Source of the DNA: Bacteroidia bacterium | GTDB taxonomy: Bacteria; Bacteroidota; Bacteroidia; J057 | NCBI GenBank assembly: GCA_033391075.1 | Contig: JAWPMV010000001.1 | Location: 7,006,001-7,070,000 of the forward strand | DNA length: 64,000 nucleotides | Reading direction: 5' to 3' | Shown: positions 16,215-45,183 of the stretch, piece by piece | How the letters are laid out: every line of letters begins with the position of its first letter | Position numbering within the stretch: position 1 is the stretch's first letter | The notes under the pieces: generated by a model | Database searches by the model: none | What the model was told of the DNA's origin: nothing | Seen by the model: only the letters and a program-made list of their open reading frames with translations | Program-made: the position numbers and the translations under genes

Positions 16215-16497
16215 GTTAATTGTTAAGTGTAAACGGAGAAGTGCAAACTGCAAAAAAACGCTGTGGGGTAGGTATTTTCCTCTTCCTTGTCTTTCTCCGG
16301 TCGCAAATTGCTAAAAAAAGGGCACACTTCAAAAAGCCATTGCCCCGATTCTCATTACTCTCATACGACAAGGAGCAATTTTAGATTCAATTTAATAGAA
16401 AGTAACACAGCTGTATATGATTAAATTTCATAAATTATCCGAAGGCCCAAAATAAGGCTGAATATTTGCTCAGCCAGTGTAAAATCCGGATTTGCTT

Positions 16498-19185
16498 ATG
16501 TATGAAAACCCTGTTCAGGAAGCCCAAAGAAGAATTGATATATGCAGAAAGAAAAAGTCTGTCAGATTAGATTTGGCTGGCCTGGACCTGGAGAGCATTC
16601 CCGATGAGGTTTGGGAACTGGATTGGTTGGTGCAGTTAAATGCTGGACAGGCAGCAGTAGAAGAAGATGGACGAAAGACTTACTATAAGAACAGGATCAA
16701 AGATCTTTCACCCAAAATATCCCAACTCAAAAATCTACGATTCCTGGACCTGGGAAATAACCGCCTGCAAAGCTTGCCTGAAAGTATAGGCGAATTGACA
16801 GAACTTGAAGGCTTATATCTGGAATACAATCAGCTGATCGCGATTCCCGAATCTATAGGGAACTTATTGAAAATGCGGAGATTAGATCTTCGTTTCAATC
16901 AACTCTACCAAATTCCTTATAGCCTGGTTCAGCTTCAATTTCTGGAGAAACGAAAAAAAGGAAGAAAGAGAACCGGACTGGGATTATTTGGAAATCGCTT
17001 TGGTCTTCCGGATGAAATTTTCAGTTACAATCCGCCTGAACTCATTTATTATCTTCTGGAAGTACAGGTAGCCCTAAAGAAAAGACAAGCAAAGCCTTTG
17101 CATGAAGCAAAACTGATCTTTATCGGATCAGGAGAAGTAGGGAAAACCTCTTTGATCAAAAGATTGCTAGGAAAGCCTTTTGATGAGGATGAAAAGATGA
17201 CAGAAGGAATCGTGATTTATCCCTGGCAGGCCAAAAAGGGAAGGCATAATATCAAACTCAATATCTGGGATTTTGGAGGTCAGGAAATCATGCATGCCAC
17301 GCATAGATTTTTCATGACCCGTCGATCCATTTATGTATTGGTCGCCAATCCGAGGATGGAAGATAAATATGGCGATACCGAACTGGAGTATTGGCTCAAA
17401 CTGATCCATTCTTATGCCGGTTCGGAAATCCCGATCATTGTCTGCATCAATAAGTGCGACATCCATAAGATGGATTTTGGAAAAGGAAGTATCAAAGACA
17501 AATATCCCAATATTGTGGGCTTTGTTGAGACCTCAGCCAAAAAGGACATCGGGATCGATCGCCTGGCACGTTTGGTGGGCCTGGCGCTCAAACAAAAATA
17601 TATGCGGCATGTAGATGATATCATGCTAAAAGGAGATTTGGCCATCAAAAACAAGCTGGAAACGGAGAACCGGGATTATATGGCCTATCCGGACTATGAA
17701 GCCTTATGCAAAGAACTTTTCCCCAAAATGCAGGCCTTCCAAAAAGAAAGGCTCTTGCGCCTGCTTCACGATCTGGGAATCATGCTCAATTTTCGAGATG
17801 ACGAAAAACAGGCATTGGCGGATACGCAGGTATTGAATCCAGAATGGGTAACCAAAGGCGTATATAGCATCATTACTTCTCCCAGACTTATCGAGTGGAA
17901 AGGGATACTCAATCTCAAGCAGGTAGGGGAGTTGTTGGATAAAAGGAGTTATCCCGGTCGAAAAGAATGGCAATTCATTGTGGATATCATGGAGAAGTTT
18001 GAACTAAGTTTCAGTCTTCCTCATGCCCGGGGCAAATATTTTATTCCCGGAGCCTTTCCAAAAGATCGTCCACGTCGAATGGTCTGGAAACATCCCATTC
18101 CCAAGCTTCTTCGCTTCCAATATCATTATGATGTATTGCCGGATGTCATTATTTCTCGTTTCATTTCCAATGTCCACAACCTGGTCAAGGAGCGGAACTT
18201 CTGGAGAAATGGGGTGATGATTTCGGAAGAAGGAAAAGAGGCGCTGATTCGTTCTGATCCGGCCGACCGCAGGATTTATATTGCAGTAGGAGGGGAGGGG
18301 AATAAAAGAAGTCTCTTAGCAATCGTCAGAAGTGTCTTTAAGCAGATTCATGAAAACCTGGAAGGGATACAGGTGAAGGAATTTATTCCCCTGGATGAGG
18401 AGGGCAAAGCCCTGGCGGATTATGAGGCCTTATTGGCACATGAGGAATTGAAAGAGGAATACTACCTGAGTCCGGTTTTGAAAAAGCGCTTTAATGTAAG
18501 CCTTCTGCTGGATGGCTATGAATCTCGGGAAAGTAGGGAAGATCGCAGAAAGCGGATAGATGAAGAAAGACAGCACAGCATGACGGAGGAATTGAAAGCC
18601 CTCTTTATATCAAAAGCCGAGGAGAACCCTAAGAATAAAATCCTCTTTCTGGCCGCGCATCCCACGGATGAAGGGCGCAATCGCATGGATGAAGAGCATA
18701 GAGAAATTCAGGAGAGTTTGCTTCGATCAAATCGGAGACAGGATTTTAGTTTCAGCAGTCGATTTGCCTTGGATAGGAGAGGATTGAGTCGAGCTATTTT
18801 GGATGAAAAGCCACAGATCGTTCATTTTTCCGGGGGAGGTGAAAAAGGAAAAGGTATTCTGATGCAGGACAAAAGGGGGAATTTAAAGCCTTTGGGGAAA
18901 ATTGCGCTGGCCGCTTTGTTTGAACTCTTTGAAGGGGAAATCGAATGTGTCCTCCTCAATGCCTGCTTTAGTCAGAATCAGGCACAAGAAATCTCAAAAT
19001 ACGTTCCTTTTGTAATTGGTATGTCAGCCAGCATTTCGGATGAAGCTGCCATTTTATTTGCCAGTGCTTTTTATGATGCGATAGGAAATGGAAGGGATAT
19101 TCCCTTTGCTTTTCGCTTTGCGCGAAATAGTCTCGATTTGGAAGACATGCCAGAATCGGCTTTGCCCATCATGATAGAAGGATAA
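16498..19185 (+). CDS. LRR-Roco GTPase-CHAT protein with substituted catalytic His (pseudo-CHAT)
   Basis: 895 residues from ATG at 16498 (a TTG two codons earlier is also open). Domains: leucine-rich repeats about 25-165 (NLRFLDLGNNRLQSLPESIG, LEGLYLEYNQLIAIPESIG, RRLDLRFNQLYQIPYSL); Roc GTPase about 203-390 with GSGEVGKTS (210-218), DFGGQE (258-263) and NKCD (318-321); a COR-like region about 420-640; charged linker; CHAT caspase-like domain about 705-893. The CHAT Cys is present (C823 in LLNACFS), but the His motif normally written HFSGHG reads HFSGGG (residues 776-781), with Gly780 at the His position. Codon gga versus cat/cac needs three base changes, so this is not a simple error. Roco-CHAT proteins are predicted conflict or programmed-death sensors. 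Followed by a strong terminator. Confidence 0.9.
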   Translation: MYENPVQEAQRRIDICRKKKSVRLDLAGLDLESIPDEVWELDWLVQLNAGQAAVEEDGRKTYYKNRIKDLSPKISQLKNLRFLDLGNNRLQSLPESIGELTELEGLYLEYNQLIAIPESIGNLLKMRRLDLRFNQLYQIPYSLVQLQFLEKRKKGRKRTGLGLFGNRFGLPDEIFSYNPPELIYYLLEVQVALKKRQAKPLHEAKLIFIGSGEVGKTSLIKRLLGKPFDEDEKMTEGIVIYPWQAKKGRHNIKLNIWDFGGQEIMHATHRFFMTRRSIYVLVANPRMEDKYGDTELEYWLKLIHSYAGSEIPIIVCINKCDIHKMDFGKGSIKDKYPNIVGFVETSAKKDIGIDRLARLVGLALKQKYMRHVDDIMLKGDLAIKNKLETENRDYMAYPDYEALCKELFPKMQAFQKERLLRLLHDLGIMLNFRDDEKQALADTQVLNPEWVTKGVYSIITSPRLIEWKGILNLKQVGELLDKRSYPGRKEWQFIVDIMEKFELSFSLPHARGKYFIPGAFPKDRPRRMVWKHPIPKLLRFQYHYDVLPDVIISRFISNVHNLVKERNFWRNGVMISEEGKEALIRSDPADRRIYIAVGGEGNKRSLLAIVRSVFKQIHENLEGIQVKEFIPLDEEGKALADYEALLAHEELKEEYYLSPVLKKRFNVSLLLDGYESRESREDRRKRIDEERQHSMTEELKALFISKAEENPKNKILFLAAHPTDEGRNRMDEEHREIQESLLRSNRRQDFSFSSRFALDRRGLSRAILDEKPQIVHFSGGGEKGKGILMQDKRGNLKPLGKIALAALFELFEGEIECVLLNACFSQNQAQEISKYVPFVIGMSASISDEAAILFASAFYDAIGNGRDIPFAFRFARNSLDLEDMPESALPIMIEG

Positions 19186-37779: not shown

Positions 37780-40700
37780 CTATTGTGCCAGGGTAAATCT
37801 CAACTGGAAACCTCCGCTTGCGAAGGAAGTCCGGAAGGAGTTACTGACATAAGGATTGTTGACGTTTCTTTCGAAGAAAAGCTTCACATTCAATCGGCTA
37901 TTAACTACATAATCGATAGAAGGTGAGAGGATAAAATTGAAAGCTCCCCGTGTTGTCTCAGGATTCCTTGCAGAAGCCAATTCATCAACTGTGCCCGAAG
38001 GTGTCAGGAAGCGATTGGTTTCACGCGTATCTCTCAGGGTCGCACGGAAGCTTATGTTCAAGCTATTGTTCAAACTCACGGGCTTACCTCCCAGGGTAAA
38101 GTTCCAGTTCAGCTTATCCTTTCTCCAACCAAAGAGAACCGCTATATCCTGATTTTGCAATTCCGTCAATACCAGGTTACCTACATTGAAGCTGATCTGC
38201 CTTCCTTTTTTATAGTCAATAGAAGCAGTCGCTCCATTTTTGAAAGTCATGGTAAGACCCAATAGAGGAGAGAATTGCTCCTGAATCTGCACGATTCGAT
38301 AGTTATCCAATGCATAAAAGTTGGATACATTTCCGAAGTCATCCGGCTCCAAATCGTCGAAGGCTGAAGAATATCCAAATCCACCGGGATCGAGCGATTT
38401 CAGGTTGTTGTTGAAGGTACCGATCGAATAGGTCGCTCGATAGGTATGTTTAAGCGCAATTGCATTAAAGGTATTTTTCAGATCAGGGAAACCGGTCAAT
38501 ACATTATAGTTCAAACTCCAGTTGGGCAAGGGAATCCTCGGTAAGCTGGATAAGGAAATTTTATCTGCTTCATACACCCCATAAGCCGCAAGCAAAGAAG
38601 GAATCAATACGTCCTGATTCGTTCCGGGATATCCATTTGCAAAGCCTCCTTTGAGAGGTTCATTTCCGGCCCGGGGATCAAGCTGCCCGATATAAGGGTT
38701 CTCTGCTGCCAATCGCTGTGAAATGGCAACCCGATTTTGGGAGAACTCATCAAAGGCCAGCGATTTTTCTCCACCTGTTGTGAATAGTCCTTCCTTAAAG
38801 GCTGTACCGATAAAGATATAGGACATAGAAAAACTACCGTTTCTCAGTGGATCAAAATTATCGTAGTTCTGACTGATCGGATCCCAGCGGAAATACTCAC
38901 TTCCATTTTGCGTGATGCTTCTATTCGCAGTAACATCTATTCTGAAACCGGGGAAGAGTTCTATAGAAGCTCTACCCGTCAGATTGTCCTGCTGATTTTG
39001 CATATACAGAGAAGTCAGATTGGTATCCTGGGTGATCCAGAAATTCTCCGCTGCTATCGTTCGAATATCGGCCTGACTACCGAGTATAAAGCCTGCCGTT
39101 GGCGCGAGAATGGAACCCCGTTGGCCCGTTACGGGATTGATATAATCCCAGTCGATCCCAAAGTTATCAGTTTGAGGAAGATAACCCGGCAGGATGGTAC
39201 CATTGTTACTGGCATAGGTGAGGTCTACATTTTTGACACTCAGAGCCAACTTGACAATCTCTTTACCAATAACTTTCAGGAATTTCAGCGGATCTTTTTT
39301 GACCGTATCCTCTTCTGCAGCAATATCTGCTTCTGGAGCTTTGGGTTCTTCTCTTTGACCCGGACGTTGCCTTTGCGGAAGATTTCTTCCCTGATTTTTA
39401 TTCTTACTTTCCTCTAATATGGTCTTGATGGGTTTAAATTTCTTGTAAAAACCATCCAGATTTATTCGAGCATTGGCCTGTACATTTTGAGAGTTACCAA
39501 TGGTATTTCCCAGTTCCGGATTGGTTTCCGGAGCCTGTTGCCAATTATAAGTACCACTATAATTTACCGTACCATTCAACCAGTCTAAGGGCCGTATTTG
39601 ACTAAAGGGTAATTGATAGGCAATATTGAAGTTATGGGTAAAATTGGTGGTTCGACCCATATTAATGAGGTTGTTATGCCCTCTCGCTCTATCTCTACCT
39701 AAATGGATCAGATTATCGATCAGGGTACCTACCGAATCCCTTTCTCTTTGGGAAGCTGTTTCCCAAAATCCTCTTACCTCATCTACCCTTGATACATTAT
39801 TGGCTGAGTAGGTGAATTGGAGGTTTCGGGTGAAATTCCATACCAGATTATAGGTCCTGTTGAGGCGGAAGTTTTTGGCGAAAGTTGTATCCACAAATCC
39901 TCCGAAAAGAGAGGTCGGACGCATTTGTCGTGCTTCAAACTGCCTGTCTCCTGCAATACTCACAGAAACCGAGGTAGGCACCGGACTGAAGTTGATGAAA
40001 TGCAGGAATTTAAGTTTATCAAAATTCTTGAAGGGCTGTACCTGTACCTGGGGGAAATTGTATCGATAATTGATCATTCCCCGGTGTTGGGTATTCAATC
40101 TCGACTGGATCACCGAGTTTCGAGAGAATTGCTCATTGAAAGCATAAGTGAAGTCAAAGTTTGAAATATCCCAGGGCCAGCTTTTTGGGGGCTTGGCCGG
40201 TTTTCCGGTTTCTCCGGGCCTTCCCTGTGATTTTCCTTTTCTCCAGTTATTGAAAGAAATGGATCGGGTCCGGGTGTAGTCCTGAATCTCCTGCAATTTG
40301 GCTCGGGCTGATTCCTGGTCTAGTGCCTCGATCAATTTATCGGTTCGTACATCCGCTTCCTGTGGGTTGAACTGGGGATTGATAAAGTGCTCTCCATAGG
40401 TAGCATATACCGGAAGGCTGAGTCCCCATTTCTTCGGGAAGAATTTATCCAGGGTAATATTAGCGGAAAGGTCATAGCGATAATTATCCTCCAGTGGACG
40501 ATTGGAAATCTTTTGTCCCAATGGGCCAAAGCCGGAAGTCTTGAATGCACCTGATGCACTGATAGAGCCCAGATCTGCCAATTGAATGGTTGTATTCAAA
40601 TTCGCCGCATATCCTTTTTCCCGATCAAAATTTGTCAACCGCAATTCATTCACCCAAACCTCTAAACAAATCCGTTCACCAGTAGGATCTTCCGGATTTC

Positions 40701-43700
40701 TCACACCGATCATGATATTACGAACATCACTAAGTTTGGGCGTACCTTTTACGTAAATCTTATGCCCTTCTTCCATGGTTGAGTCTCGATACTCATGTCG
40801 ATAAATCAAGCCGGTTTGGGCGAGATTTCGGTCATTTTTTGCTACAGCAAATTGAGAAAGGGCAAAGTCAAACTCATTCTGCAACAACCATATATTGTCC
40901 CGGGTTTGAACACCATCGATGGAAGGCGTCAAAGGGATTTCGTATTCATAATAGTTGAAATCATTATCCAGCCCCAGTCGAATAAAGGCTACCGCATCTC
41001 CTCGATCATTGAAGTTGGACGGTCGTACCCCATCTTCGACAGGCTCGGCATGCATAAAGAGCCGGAGTCGGTCATATTGTCGCATGTCATAGGTGACCGT
41101 TTTAAACATGGCGCGACCATCTCCATCTTCGAGATCGCAAATATTCAGGGTTAGTGAGCGTTCGTCCTGAAGGAAACCCTGATTGGTATTTCCATTGAGG
41201 CTCTGTTGCTCGATACCCGGAGGCAGTACATAGTTGAAGGGCTGCTTGGAAGAGTTCTCTTCCACTGAAACTGTACCGATGTCAAAGCTTGCAAAAGGAG
41301 GCTCTGCTGGAGGAGGGGCAATTCCATCTCCTCTTAAATCTCCGGCAAAACGACGCCACTGAGCCGCGATCAATTGGAACTCTGTCATCCGCAGGATCAC
41401 ATCTTCCTCGAAATCGGTCAAATACATACGCATGAAATTGATCGATTTGAAATCTGCGATATCATTTACAGCTCTACCTGTACTGATGGGAATTCTAAAC
41501 TGGTACCAGGTAACCGGAACCGGACCATTAGGTGTATTTGCATCAGAGTCGATACGGTCCACAATGAAGTTTTGTCCGGGGACCATAGAGCCGGGGCGTA
41601 GCTGGATTTTGTATTCCCAGTATTGCTCGGCAAAGTTTAAACTCCCGTTTTCATTCAAGTCTTCTGAATCCGGTTGCTGAGTTGCCTGGGTAACGAAATT
41701 GGTTCTTTGTTCCTGAACGGGGGAGTTGTTCTCCATCCCGTTGAACTCAGAATATCTTTCGAGAATACCGGCAGATCTATTTTCATATTCCTCATTTCTA
41801 AAGTGGAGGAAGTCATCCGAACTGGGGTCAGTCTGTAGCTCCGAGAAAGCGGCGGGACTCAGGTAGTTTCTCAATGGCCCCAGAAAATTGTCCTGGAAAA
41901 AGGTGTCCTCTGATACAGAATTCAACCCATCCAATCCAATATCCTGTGCCTGTCTTTTATCGGGATCATTATCGAAGGCATTTGTAGAGGGGTTACCGAT
42001 TGAGACCAAACCATAAGGAGTAGGCGTTACATTCGGATTGTCATTGGGTCCGGGAAGACCATTTTCTCTACTCAGGTTTTGATCTGGTAGAACGTCTTCA
42101 TCTATTAGTCCCAGGTTGAAGTAAAACTCACCTCCCGCATGATTGGGATTTTCCATGAAAGGGTCCATCAACCAGAACTCCACAAATTCTACATTGGTAG
42201 CTTCGAAGTCATTGTTAACGTCAATTTCTCTCATTACCCCTGCCCAGTTTTCTGTTGGGCTGGTAAAATCTCCACTATTGGCATCCAGTTTTTGCTGGTC
42301 TTTTTGATAGTTGTAAGGTCCCCTTTCTGTCGGCTTATAGTTGAGGTCAAAAGTCAACTGTAAATTTTGTCCGAACGGTCGGGTGGAGGTAGGGAACAAT
42401 TCAATAGGATCTACCTGACGCGTATAGTTATTGCTTCTATCTTCATCCGGAATTTCTATCCCAAATCCCTGATAAAAGGTTTGGTCAATCTGATACCAGG
42501 CAAGTTTCGCCCGGGTATAGTTCTCGGCCAAACTATCTCCCATATAGATTTCTGCTGGATTTCTCAAGGTTTCATTTCCGTCAGGGAAAGAAGCGAGTTT
42601 CCATCTTTGTTGTCCTTGCAAACTGAAAGGAGTCGCAGCAGCCTCAAAGTCTTCCAGATAGACAACTCCTCTATCTTGCGAATTTCGGATGGCCTTTGGA
42701 ACACCGGGAATAAATTGAGCCCCTTCAAAGGCAAAATCTATGTTTGATTTTTCTTTGGTAGTGATGAGGGGAAGTCGGTCTATAGCTTTGGTCAAAAAGT
42801 CAGATTCTCCGCTATAGGTTGCATCCAATCCCCAGAGGGTATTATTGGTAGGTTCATCACCCAGGGTCAGCTTTTGGTTGAAAGGCTGCTCCCTCAGGTT
42901 CATGGCAGTCAGCCCGAAATTTATGCGATCATTGGGCGCATATTCTGCTCTTGCTCCCAGCAGGGTTTTGGTTTGAACCTGGTATAAAGAAGAACTTTCG
43001 TAGTCAACTTTGATTTCCCTTCCAGAAGTCAGGATGGATTGATTGATGATGGTCACCTTTCCACCAAAATAGTCTACCTGATAATCGACATTTTCTGTCA
43101 GTCTTTGTCCACCGGCTGTAACGGTCACACTTCCTTCGGCGAGGTTGAATGTATTTAGCGGAATTTCGGCCCCTCCCGCAGAACGATAATATCCTTCCAG
43201 GGTGAAGCGGTTAAGCTCTGGAAAATTCTGAATGGCATTGGCCTGGGTTTCATCATACAATTGCTGGAAAACATATTTGGTAACCTCATTCTGATCATTT
43301 TCCAGCTGATTCGCCAAATGCGAACCAAAGGGTTCGAGTTTGGGGAAGATGACAAGGCCTCGATCTGAACGAACGGTAACTCCTTCTATATAGTCGAAGA
43401 AGTTATCCGGATTGGGTGCAGTATTGTTTGTCAAACGGTCAACCCCCATTACCTGGATCAACTGGCGGTTGGCCACAGCACCAGTTGGGAGGAAGTTGAT
43501 CTTACCTGCACTGGTTCCTGATTCATATCGGATGTCCAGGAAAAAGTTTTCTGACTTTAGTCCATAGCCAATGTTATAGATATTTTTCATCATCAGGTCC
43601 CAGGCCGGATAAGGACTGACCCGTAGGACTGATGGTCTCAACATCTTCACAAAGATCACATCCGAATTGGTCGGATTGGCTGGGACATCATCTCCAAATT

Positions 43701-45183
43701 CCCCCACCTGAAAGTTTTGACCATTCAGGGTATAGTCAAATGCTACGAAGAGCACCTGACCATTGGGGACAGGAGAATTTAGTGAGATATACCCGAGCTG
43801 CGAATTTAACTGATACTCGGTCTGATCCAGTCTCCGCATATTACCCAGGATCTCAAAATCCTCGGTATTCCTCATCTGTACTCCTAATGATTCGATAGCT
43901 GATTTCGCAGAGCTTTGTTGGCGTGCTGCAGGAGAGTTAGTTAGAAGGTCAAACAGATTATTGGATTCGTTGTCCGGAAGTCTGACGGAGGTGCTTTGAA
44001 CAAGGTCTTCATTATAGACCCTACCCTGACCACCGGCTACCGGATTATCATTTTCACCAAGGTCAACAAAACCTACGGCATTTCTTTGGTTTCTGGTTGC
44101 TCCCTGCTGCTGTACCCAGACTTCTACCCGGTTGATACGAAGGGTAGAGGAGATGACAGGGAGAGTTCTGAGTGCATCCTCATATCGCGAACGGAAATAA
44201 TGAGAGAGGAAGAAGTGTCGGTTGGCATCATAGTCTGCAGCTTCCTTTTCAAAAGGAGTTTCGACTGCTCCACCTCCTGCTACTGCAATACTTTCAACTT
44301 TGCCTCGCTCCGTAGAAGCAATGGCTGTAACGTAAACAGGCCCAAAGCGCAAACGCGTTTTTAATCCAAAAAGATTTTGGCGCCCCTGGATAAGAGAGTT
44401 GCCCAATTGCATGTTTACATTACCCGCTTCAATATCTTGAAGAATCTGATCTTCTGTTCCCTGATGCGCTAGCTTCAATTCGTTTTCAAAATCGAAAGTA
44501 GCCTGGGTATCGAAGTTTACATTCAGTTTGAGTTTTTCTCCTATCTGCCCAATTACCCCTAGCTGGATCTGCTGATCGAAATTAAAGGTAGTGGTACTTT
44601 GTTGACGGAGTGGAATAGACGGATTCTCTGTCTTATTATTATCAATTGAGAAATCAAGAGTGGCATAACCGGTCGGTCTGATTGAGATCGTTCCGCCTCC
44701 AAATACATCAGATAGTTCGTCGATGTTGATATCCAGAGAAAGTCCCCCGCGATTTTCTTCATTTGAGGATGATGCTTGTTCCCGGAAATAGTCTGTTACT
44801 CCTTTTTTTCTTCTGTACTCAAGGTAATCTTCAAATGAGATGGTAGAAGGTGGACGGAAATTGATCTTTCCGATCTTCTCATAGATATTATACCCGCCCT
44901 CTTCATTGAGTTCGAATGTCTGCTGGAAGTTTCTGGGATTCTTAAGGTAAAGAGGCGTAACACGATCCTGACGTGTAGGATCCCCAACTCTGTTATTAGG
45001 GTTTTTTTTCTTCTTTTTGGAAGTATCCTCTACTGCGATTTGGTCCGGGGACCAAAGCTCCAAAGAAGCCTCTTCATGATAGGCAAGGGGCAACTCTTCT
45101 TCACGCTGCTCTTGAGTACCGTCTGGATTATAGAAAATAGATCCTATAGCCCAGAGCAGCACAGTGATGCTGATCTTAGACAA
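37780..45183 (-). CDS. sprA: SprA, outer-membrane translocon of the type IX secretion / gliding system
   Basis: 2467 residues, the usual SprA size. SprA forms the very large outer-membrane barrel through which T9SS cargo leaves the cell in Bacteroidota. The N-terminal region (EKIGKINFRPPSTISFEDYLEYRRK) and repeated blocks such as ISIRPTGYATLDFSI, QIQLGVIGQIGEKLKLNVNFDTQATFDFENELKL and later DLSSRGNA-type barrel strands are characteristic. The frame opens with TTG at 45183 just after an in-frame TAA; no ATG occurs until well inside the protein, so TTG (or a nearby non-ATG codon) must be used. The first 20 residues hold a weak signal (ISITVLLWAIGSIFY). A terminator follows and ruvA lies upstream by 334 bp. 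The window's large surface protein at 59196 is a likely cargo. Confidence 0.95.
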   Translation of the reverse strand: MSKISITVLLWAIGSIFYNPDGTQEQREEELPLAYHEEASLELWSPDQIAVEDTSKKKKKNPNNRVGDPTRQDRVTPLYLKNPRNFQQTFELNEEGGYNIYEKIGKINFRPPSTISFEDYLEYRRKKGVTDYFREQASSSNEENRGGLSLDINIDELSDVFGGGTISIRPTGYATLDFSIDNNKTENPSIPLRQQSTTTFNFDQQIQLGVIGQIGEKLKLNVNFDTQATFDFENELKLAHQGTEDQILQDIEAGNVNMQLGNSLIQGRQNLFGLKTRLRFGPVYVTAIASTERGKVESIAVAGGGAVETPFEKEAADYDANRHFFLSHYFRSRYEDALRTLPVISSTLRINRVEVWVQQQGATRNQRNAVGFVDLGENDNPVAGGQGRVYNEDLVQSTSVRLPDNESNNLFDLLTNSPAARQQSSAKSAIESLGVQMRNTEDFEILGNMRRLDQTEYQLNSQLGYISLNSPVPNGQVLFVAFDYTLNGQNFQVGEFGDDVPANPTNSDVIFVKMLRPSVLRVSPYPAWDLMMKNIYNIGYGLKSENFFLDIRYESGTSAGKINFLPTGAVANRQLIQVMGVDRLTNNTAPNPDNFFDYIEGVTVRSDRGLVIFPKLEPFGSHLANQLENDQNEVTKYVFQQLYDETQANAIQNFPELNRFTLEGYYRSAGGAEIPLNTFNLAEGSVTVTAGGQRLTENVDYQVDYFGGKVTIINQSILTSGREIKVDYESSSLYQVQTKTLLGARAEYAPNDRINFGLTAMNLREQPFNQKLTLGDEPTNNTLWGLDATYSGESDFLTKAIDRLPLITTKEKSNIDFAFEGAQFIPGVPKAIRNSQDRGVVYLEDFEAAATPFSLQGQQRWKLASFPDGNETLRNPAEIYMGDSLAENYTRAKLAWYQIDQTFYQGFGIEIPDEDRSNNYTRQVDPIELFPTSTRPFGQNLQLTFDLNYKPTERGPYNYQKDQQKLDANSGDFTSPTENWAGVMREIDVNNDFEATNVEFVEFWLMDPFMENPNHAGGEFYFNLGLIDEDVLPDQNLSRENGLPGPNDNPNVTPTPYGLVSIGNPSTNAFDNDPDKRQAQDIGLDGLNSVSEDTFFQDNFLGPLRNYLSPAAFSELQTDPSSDDFLHFRNEEYENRSAGILERYSEFNGMENNSPVQEQRTNFVTQATQQPDSEDLNENGSLNFAEQYWEYKIQLRPGSMVPGQNFIVDRIDSDANTPNGPVPVTWYQFRIPISTGRAVNDIADFKSINFMRMYLTDFEEDVILRMTEFQLIAAQWRRFAGDLRGDGIAPPPAEPPFASFDIGTVSVEENSSKQPFNYVLPPGIEQQSLNGNTNQGFLQDERSLTLNICDLEDGDGRAMFKTVTYDMRQYDRLRLFMHAEPVEDGVRPSNFNDRGDAVAFIRLGLDNDFNYYEYEIPLTPSIDGVQTRDNIWLLQNEFDFALSQFAVAKNDRNLAQTGLIYRHEYRDSTMEEGHKIYVKGTPKLSDVRNIMIGVRNPEDPTGERICLEVWVNELRLTNFDREKGYAANLNTTIQLADLGSISASGAFKTSGFGPLGQKISNRPLEDNYRYDLSANITLDKFFPKKWGLSLPVYATYGEHFINPQFNPQEADVRTDKLIEALDQESARAKLQEIQDYTRTRSISFNNWRKGKSQGRPGETGKPAKPPKSWPWDISNFDFTYAFNEQFSRNSVIQSRLNTQHRGMINYRYNFPQVQVQPFKNFDKLKFLHFINFSPVPTSVSVSIAGDRQFEARQMRPTSLFGGFVDTTFAKNFRLNRTYNLVWNFTRNLQFTYSANNVSRVDEVRGFWETASQRERDSVGTLIDNLIHLGRDRARGHNNLINMGRTTNFTHNFNIAYQLPFSQIRPLDWLNGTVNYSGTYNWQQAPETNPELGNTIGNSQNVQANARINLDGFYKKFKPIKTILEESKNKNQGRNLPQRQRPGQREEPKAPEADIAAEEDTVKKDPLKFLKVIGKEIVKLALSVKNVDLTYASNNGTILPGYLPQTDNFGIDWDYINPVTGQRGSILAPTAGFILGSQADIRTIAAENFWITQDTNLTSLYMQNQQDNLTGRASIELFPGFRIDVTANRSITQNGSEYFRWDPISQNYDNFDPLRNGSFSMSYIFIGTAFKEGLFTTGGEKSLAFDEFSQNRVAISQRLAAENPYIGQLDPRAGNEPLKGGFANGYPGTNQDVLIPSLLAAYGVYEADKISLSSLPRIPLPNWSLNYNVLTGFPDLKNTFNAIALKHTYRATYSIGTFNNNLKSLDPGGFGYSSAFDDLEPDDFGNVSNFYALDNYRIVQIQEQFSPLLGLTMTFKNGATASIDYKKGRQISFNVGNLVLTELQNQDIAVLFGWRKDKLNWNFTLGGKPVSLNNSLNISFRATLRDTRETNRFLTPSGTVDELASARNPETTRGAFNFILSPSIDYVVNSRLNVKLFFERNVNNPYVSNSFRTSFASGGFQLRFTLAQ

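Follow-up and report, generated by a model that had tools for sequence, protein, structure and literature searches.

Loss of the catalytic histidine from the C-terminal CHAT domain of a bacterial LRR-Roco GTPase suggests a pseudoprotease

Results

An LRR-Roc-COR-CHAT gene

The window analysed here (the whole stretch of 64,000 nucleotides, from a Bacteroidia bacterium) encodes on its forward strand a protein in which leucine-rich repeats, a Roco GTPase core and a CHAT domain follow one another, with the features listed below.

16498-19185, + strand: LRR-Roc-COR-CHAT gene, 895 amino acids, ATG at 16498, frame open (ORF list and Pfam)
16687..16950, + strand: leucine-rich repeats, amino acids 64-151 (PF12799, PF23598, PF13855)
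17110..17460, + strand: Roc GTPase domain, amino acids 205-321 (PF08477, 3.1e-28, 98.9 bits)
17641..18048, + strand: COR-A, amino acids 382-517 (PF16095, 7e-29, 101 bits)
18109..18516, + strand: COR-B, amino acids 538-673 (PF25497, 2.3e-25, 89.5 bits)
18634..19182, + strand: CHAT domain, amino acids 713-895 (PF12770 plus predicted caspase-like fold)
18658..18660, + strand: CHAT position 9, in the loop after strand 1; CAT, His for Asn (Asn in 91/98 intact relatives)
18679..18681, + strand: CHAT position 16, at the start of helix 1; Asn for Leu (Leu in 93/98 intact relatives)
18835..18837, + strand: position of the catalytic His (CHAT 68); Gly codon GGA
18964..18966, + strand: position of the catalytic Cys (CHAT 111); TGC, retained

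An in-frame TTG lies at 16492, six bases upstream of the ATG. The protein is a member of the Roco family, with a Roc domain followed by COR-A and COR-B, each scoring above its Pfam cut-off, and with the GTP-binding motifs of Roc intact (P-loop GSGEVGKTS, WDFGGQE and NKCD); its top sequence matches in the PDB include the Roco structures 8r4b, 6hlu and 3dpu (E about 1e-68 to 4e-62). Its leucine-rich region is short, and far more repeats are found in its two fused paralogues (see below).

Profile match and predicted caspase-like fold together identify the C-terminal domain as CHAT. The match to PF12770 (amino acids 706-879) is barely above threshold, scoring 24.4 bits where 24 are required. An AlphaFold2 model of the domain, made with 51 locus-derived sequences (mean pLDDT 90.1, pTM 0.88), places strand 1 in residues 2-7, with helix 1 spanning 12-31; its top match among solved folds is the SAVED-CHAT filament 8tl0 (Z 22.7, 180 residues, rmsd 2.5), followed by gingipain, DdvA (8rot, Z 13.9), separases and caspases, at Z of about 12-14.5. 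Confidence is lower for a model of the whole protein (pTM 0.52, eight sequences), and we draw no inter-domain claim from it. A search with hmmscan up to E 1, which listed CHAT, gave no match to the caspase p20 domain (Peptidase_C14), so that by Pfam the domain does not belong with the p20-type pseudo-orthocaspases.

The earlier note had placed the protein in a predicted conflict- or death-related family. It is the domain company that points to such a role, which is thus a guess, since the neighbouring genes serve housekeeping and signalling: an EPSP-synthase-type (murA-like) gene, a DUF4290 gene, a SOD gene and a histidine kinase gene. The gene has no defence gene beside it, and EAD, TIR, STAND or MoxR-vWA partners are present neither in it nor adjoining it. 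Unlike the components of bacterial conflict/EAD systems, the window protein itself has no EAD in a Pfam search, whereas a relative from the same family (G207) carries EAD11. Elsewhere in the window, on the minus strand at 37780-45183, lies the gene for a 2467-amino-acid SprA-like gliding/secretion protein (PF14349).

Glycine at the catalytic histidine position

The DNA at 18823-18840 reads CAT TTT TCC GGG GGA GGT, giving HFSGGG at the CHAT His motif, whilst the Cys motif LLNACFS is intact, as the earlier note had it; its count of three base changes between GGA and a His codon (CAT or CAC) is likewise right. Alignment with 84 relatives (79 CHAT domains from public genomes plus own-genome and family relatives, the four Roco-linked CHATs of the genome being excluded) confirms that this Gly falls in the His column, which holds His in 83/84 and Tyr in 1/84, and that Cys111 falls in a column that is Cys in all 84. 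The window domain thus has the Cys expected at the end of strand 4 but lacks the His expected at the end of strand 3; besides the dyad, it keeps 23/23 of the columns conserved at 95% or more. The sole Tyr among the 84 belongs to a cyanobacterial CHAT (L130, Anabaena catenula FACHB-362), which reads HFSGYG with its Cys intact and has Arg in place of Leu16.

All Roco genes of the genome are associated with a His-less CHAT

The 9.49-Mb genome holds 36 PF12770 matches and, by a COR-A search, exactly four Roco genes, every one of which is fused to, or followed by, a CHAT without its His. Those other than the window gene are as follows.

C5:5026-8559, - strand: LRR-Roco-CHAT paralogue, 1177 amino acids (HFTSSG / LNACYT)
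C1, L070:4506-8333, - strand: LRR-Roco-CHAT paralogue, 1275 amino acids (HFSGSG / LNACYS)
L070:8589-12583, - strand: split fourth Roco; a 902-amino-acid LRR-Roco without CHAT, overlapping the next ORF of 437 amino acids

The His is therefore lost, and the Cys kept, in all three fused copies (codons GGA, TCT and AGT), and because Ser stands in the very same column of two paralogues that share this architecture at other sites in the genome, the missing His is neither chance nor a sequencing slip. In the split pair, the C-terminus of the 437-amino-acid ORF is CHAT-like with both catalytic residues gone (HFCQGS / FNINY); the C-terminus of the 902-amino-acid Roco and the N-terminus of the 437-amino-acid ORF resemble, by eye only, TIR/SLOG-like folds.

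The two nearest non-Roco CHATs of the genome, an EAD11-CHAT protein (317 amino acids) and a 361-amino-acid protein, keep HFSGHG and NAC; the pair maps to the loci C1:5731274 and C1:792934. With all four Rocos His-less and these neighbours in sequence intact, the loss tracks the Roco genes of this genome. A CHAT tree did not separate one from several His losses among the three fused copies. The residue at the site varies, and the presence there of two Ser codon families (TCT and AGT) as well as Gly (GGA) suggests that no particular residue is required.

The intact EAD11-CHAT gene and a SIR2-EAD11 gene are divergently arranged, and an nSTAND1-OmpA gene comes after the SIR2-EAD11 gene (L071:4248-8925), in what is likely a conflict cluster with an intact CHAT. 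The genome also encodes a TPR-type CHAT apparently without either catalytic residue (L013, G000:C1:4193050-4193922; EMAGYV / LPNHA).

CHAT relatives in other genomes

The 79 CHAT loci from public genomes were found by a scan with the CHAT alignment and ranked by similarity to the window domain, using the search patterns [IV][EK]CVxLNAC and F[AS]x[GAS]FY[DK]A[LIV][GC]; because these lie away from the His, the set was not selected for that residue, and for the Cys only in part. The His is kept in 78/79. None of the 79 loci has a Roc-COR domain by blastp, no relative of the full-length window protein was found among public genome contigs, and no plasmid record covered 80% of it. In scans of the class, phylum and order, clear Roco-CHAT proteins were seen only within the same bacterial family (the genus being represented in the comparison set by one genome).

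Three genomes of that family have Roco-CHATs with the Roc-COR-CHAT order of the window protein (LRR-Roco-CHAT in G306 and G001, EAD11-Roco-CHAT in G207) that, unlike it, keep both the His (HxxGHG) and the Cys; the loss is therefore not a property of all Roco-CHATs. In an enlarged set of 106 CHAT domains, both catalytic residues are present in 98.

Judging by their motifs, dead or part-dead CHATs recur on other signalling parts in the same bacterial family. In the related genome G085, a minus-strand gene (L186:6405-7424) that lies downstream of two TPR-histidine kinases encodes a response regulator; its receiver domain is N-terminal, and its C-terminal CHAT-like domain retains neither the His (HFSGVA) nor the Cys (NANH). 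The CHAT fold apparently serves here as the output domain of a two-component system. At L186:12476-13336 is an EAD11-CHAT with Ser for His. In G347, another related genome, a CHAT with Arg for His (HISGRN) and its Cys kept is fused to iSTAND (L187:997-5998), the gene being followed by an AAA ATPase ORF (MoxR-like in look) and a large ORF; this locus resembles published iSTAND ternary systems.

Selectivity of the loss

Intact domains conserve 39 CHAT columns at the 90% level or above; in 29 of these, Cys111 included, no fused copy departs from the conserved residue. Just three positions, 9, 16 and 68, are lost in every fused copy: Asn9 has become His, Arg and Ser, Leu16 Asn, Gln and Thr, and His68 Gly, Ser and Ser. 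As far as the alignment tells, then, the loss is targeted: it takes the His together with positions 9 and 16 and largely spares the rest, the Cys among it. Retention at the conserved columns is far above the average identity in each fused copy (p about 1e-6 to 7e-6 each), with the caveat that such columns may be slowest to change on other grounds.

Of the His-bearing CHATs 93/98 have Leu16, and of the His-less ones 0/8 (Fisher p 4e-9, relatedness ignored). On well-supported tree branches the link comes down to two independent pairs, which almost always agree with it but are too few for significance, and we regard the evidence that Leu16 loss accompanies His loss as suggestive. A structural comparison of clan CD enzymes derives S1 specificity from helix 1/L1, L4 and L5, and has the His and Cys end strands 3 and 4 (PMC4357240). 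The analogy with this clan is our ground for linking the substrate pocket to positions 9 and 16, and it suggests that catalysis was relaxed along with part of the pocket.

Discussion

We propose that the window gene encodes a Roco GTPase whose C-terminal CHAT is probably a pseudoprotease. The earlier note had offered this among its readings, and it has gained support: the His is gone in 3/3 fused paralogues, positions 9 and 16 are lost with it and the predicted fold is retained. Since all four Roco genes show the loss of the His, the CHAT is probably a binding module that does not cut.

The main rival is that the CHAT is in early decay, the LRR-Roc-COR part functioning alone and the CHAT being a relic that has lost catalysis and is itself to be lost; this we consider unlikely. 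In its favour, the CHAT identity among the three fused copies (45-50%) is below that of Roc (66-75%) and COR-A (65-68%; 55-75% for Roc-COR overall), the residue at the His site wanders, and the CHAT of the split copy has lost many other residues besides its catalytic pair. The retention of conserved columns described above argues the other way, as does the freedom of three diverged copies from stops and frameshifts; moreover, the window CHAT is about equally near to the intact EAD11-CHAT of the same genome (51% identity) and to its dead paralogues (46-50%).

We think it less likely still that the CHAT cuts with a base other than His68, whether His9, the conserved His64, the substrate or a partner. 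Such a reading would make sense of the intact Cys111 and LNAC loop in all three copies, and position 9 of the window copy has indeed gained a His, close to the presumed pocket if the clan CD analogy holds. Arg and Ser stand at that position in the other two copies, however, so His9 is no solution for the family, and self-rescue by it, in the window copy alone, shares the low standing of the other bases. His64 is no replacement either, being present in 83/84 other CHATs and thus ancestral, and the loss of position 16 also counts against continued cutting. A further point against it is that the dyad double mutant of Csx29, H615A/C658A, does not cleave (PMC10028731), although that experiment does not isolate the effect of the His. 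A compensating His common to the three fused paralogues was sought in the alignment and not found, and the suggestion of the earlier note that a His is borrowed from a partner finds no support, there being no new shared His and no obvious partner gene adjoining the window gene.

The full retention of Cys111 and the LNAC motif does count against a pure binding domain, which would not obviously need them. They might instead form a Cys-only site (a covalent trap, a redox switch or a half-site completed in trans), switched by GTP turnover in these lineage-specific Rocos, although we give this little credence. As for a sequencing or assembly error at the His codon, it would take three in-frame substitutions and, with the same column changed in two unlinked paralogues, is rejected as practically inconceivable.

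Returning to the pseudoprotease reading, we put forward a speculative model for how such a protein might work. A ligand sensed by the leucine-rich repeats would change the nucleotide state of Roc and the COR-mediated dimer, and this change would expose or hide a CHAT fold that no longer cuts proteins. The CHAT fold might then bind a peptide, or an active CHAT protease that it would recruit, activate or restrain in the manner of cFLIP and caspase-8. Candidate partners within the same genome are the intact EAD11-CHAT (317 amino acids) and the 361-amino-acid CHAT protein; both the partner and the direction of control (activator, decoy or brake) are guesses.

If true, the protein would be a bacterial cousin of the Parkinson's-linked LRRK2 with a pseudoprotease as its output domain, and close CHATs with both catalytic residues are at hand in the same genome for comparison. 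It would make testable both the effect of the Roco switch on a C-terminal effector and the idea that pseudo-caspases of bacteria are cFLIP-like regulators. In addition, Leu16, missing in every His-less CHAT that we have seen, offers a second diagnostic that could help to annotate dead CHATs. Our literature searches returned no paper joining the CHAT domain with pseudoproteases, and none joining Roco, CHAT, leucine-rich and bacteria, although such absence is no proof.

Comparison with known systems

The LRR-Roc-COR core is common to the window protein and to prokaryotic Rocos such as CtRoco of Chlorobium tepidum, which undergoes a large conformational change as its compact dimer gives way to a GTP-bound monomer (PMC11052575). 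Unlike proteins of that type, the window protein has a CHAT fused after COR-B; a 2019 review placed all the prokaryotic Rocos identified in the group with LRR and RocCOR only (PMC6337361). The closest solved CHAT, in the SAVED-CHAT protease 8tl0 (sequence E 4e-9), differs in having both residues of the dyad (HFIGHG and LNACC) and in being controlled via a SAVED domain, whereas the window CHAT sits on a GTPase. Another parallel is Csx29, in which a pseudo-caspase CHAT1 lies beside an active CHAT2 (PMC10028731): CHAT1 has the CHAT fold without catalysis, as we read the window domain, although Csx29 has an active CHAT in the same chain and the window protein has none.

Pseudo-orthocaspases and inactive caspase effectors, too, are bacterial clan CD domains that are catalytically dead (PMC6426788, PMC7159879). 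They are of p20 type, commonly with Tyr-Ser at the dyad and an acidic specificity pocket that is kept, whereas the window domain belongs to the CHAT family, pairs Gly with Cys (Ser with Cys in its paralogues) and has lost conserved loop and helix-1 positions. The likeness to human cFLIP-L, a pseudo-caspase that is the dimerization partner of an active caspase (as cited in PMC6426788), is one of function only, the architecture being different. Kaur et al. (2020) described about 70% of the caspase effector domains in MoxR-vWA ternary systems as inactive, and suggested that these act as dominant negatives, decoys or peptide binders (PMC7159879). Since inactive caspase effectors have thus already been reported from bacterial conflict systems, our finding extends a known theme, and it is the extension to Roco GTPases that is new.
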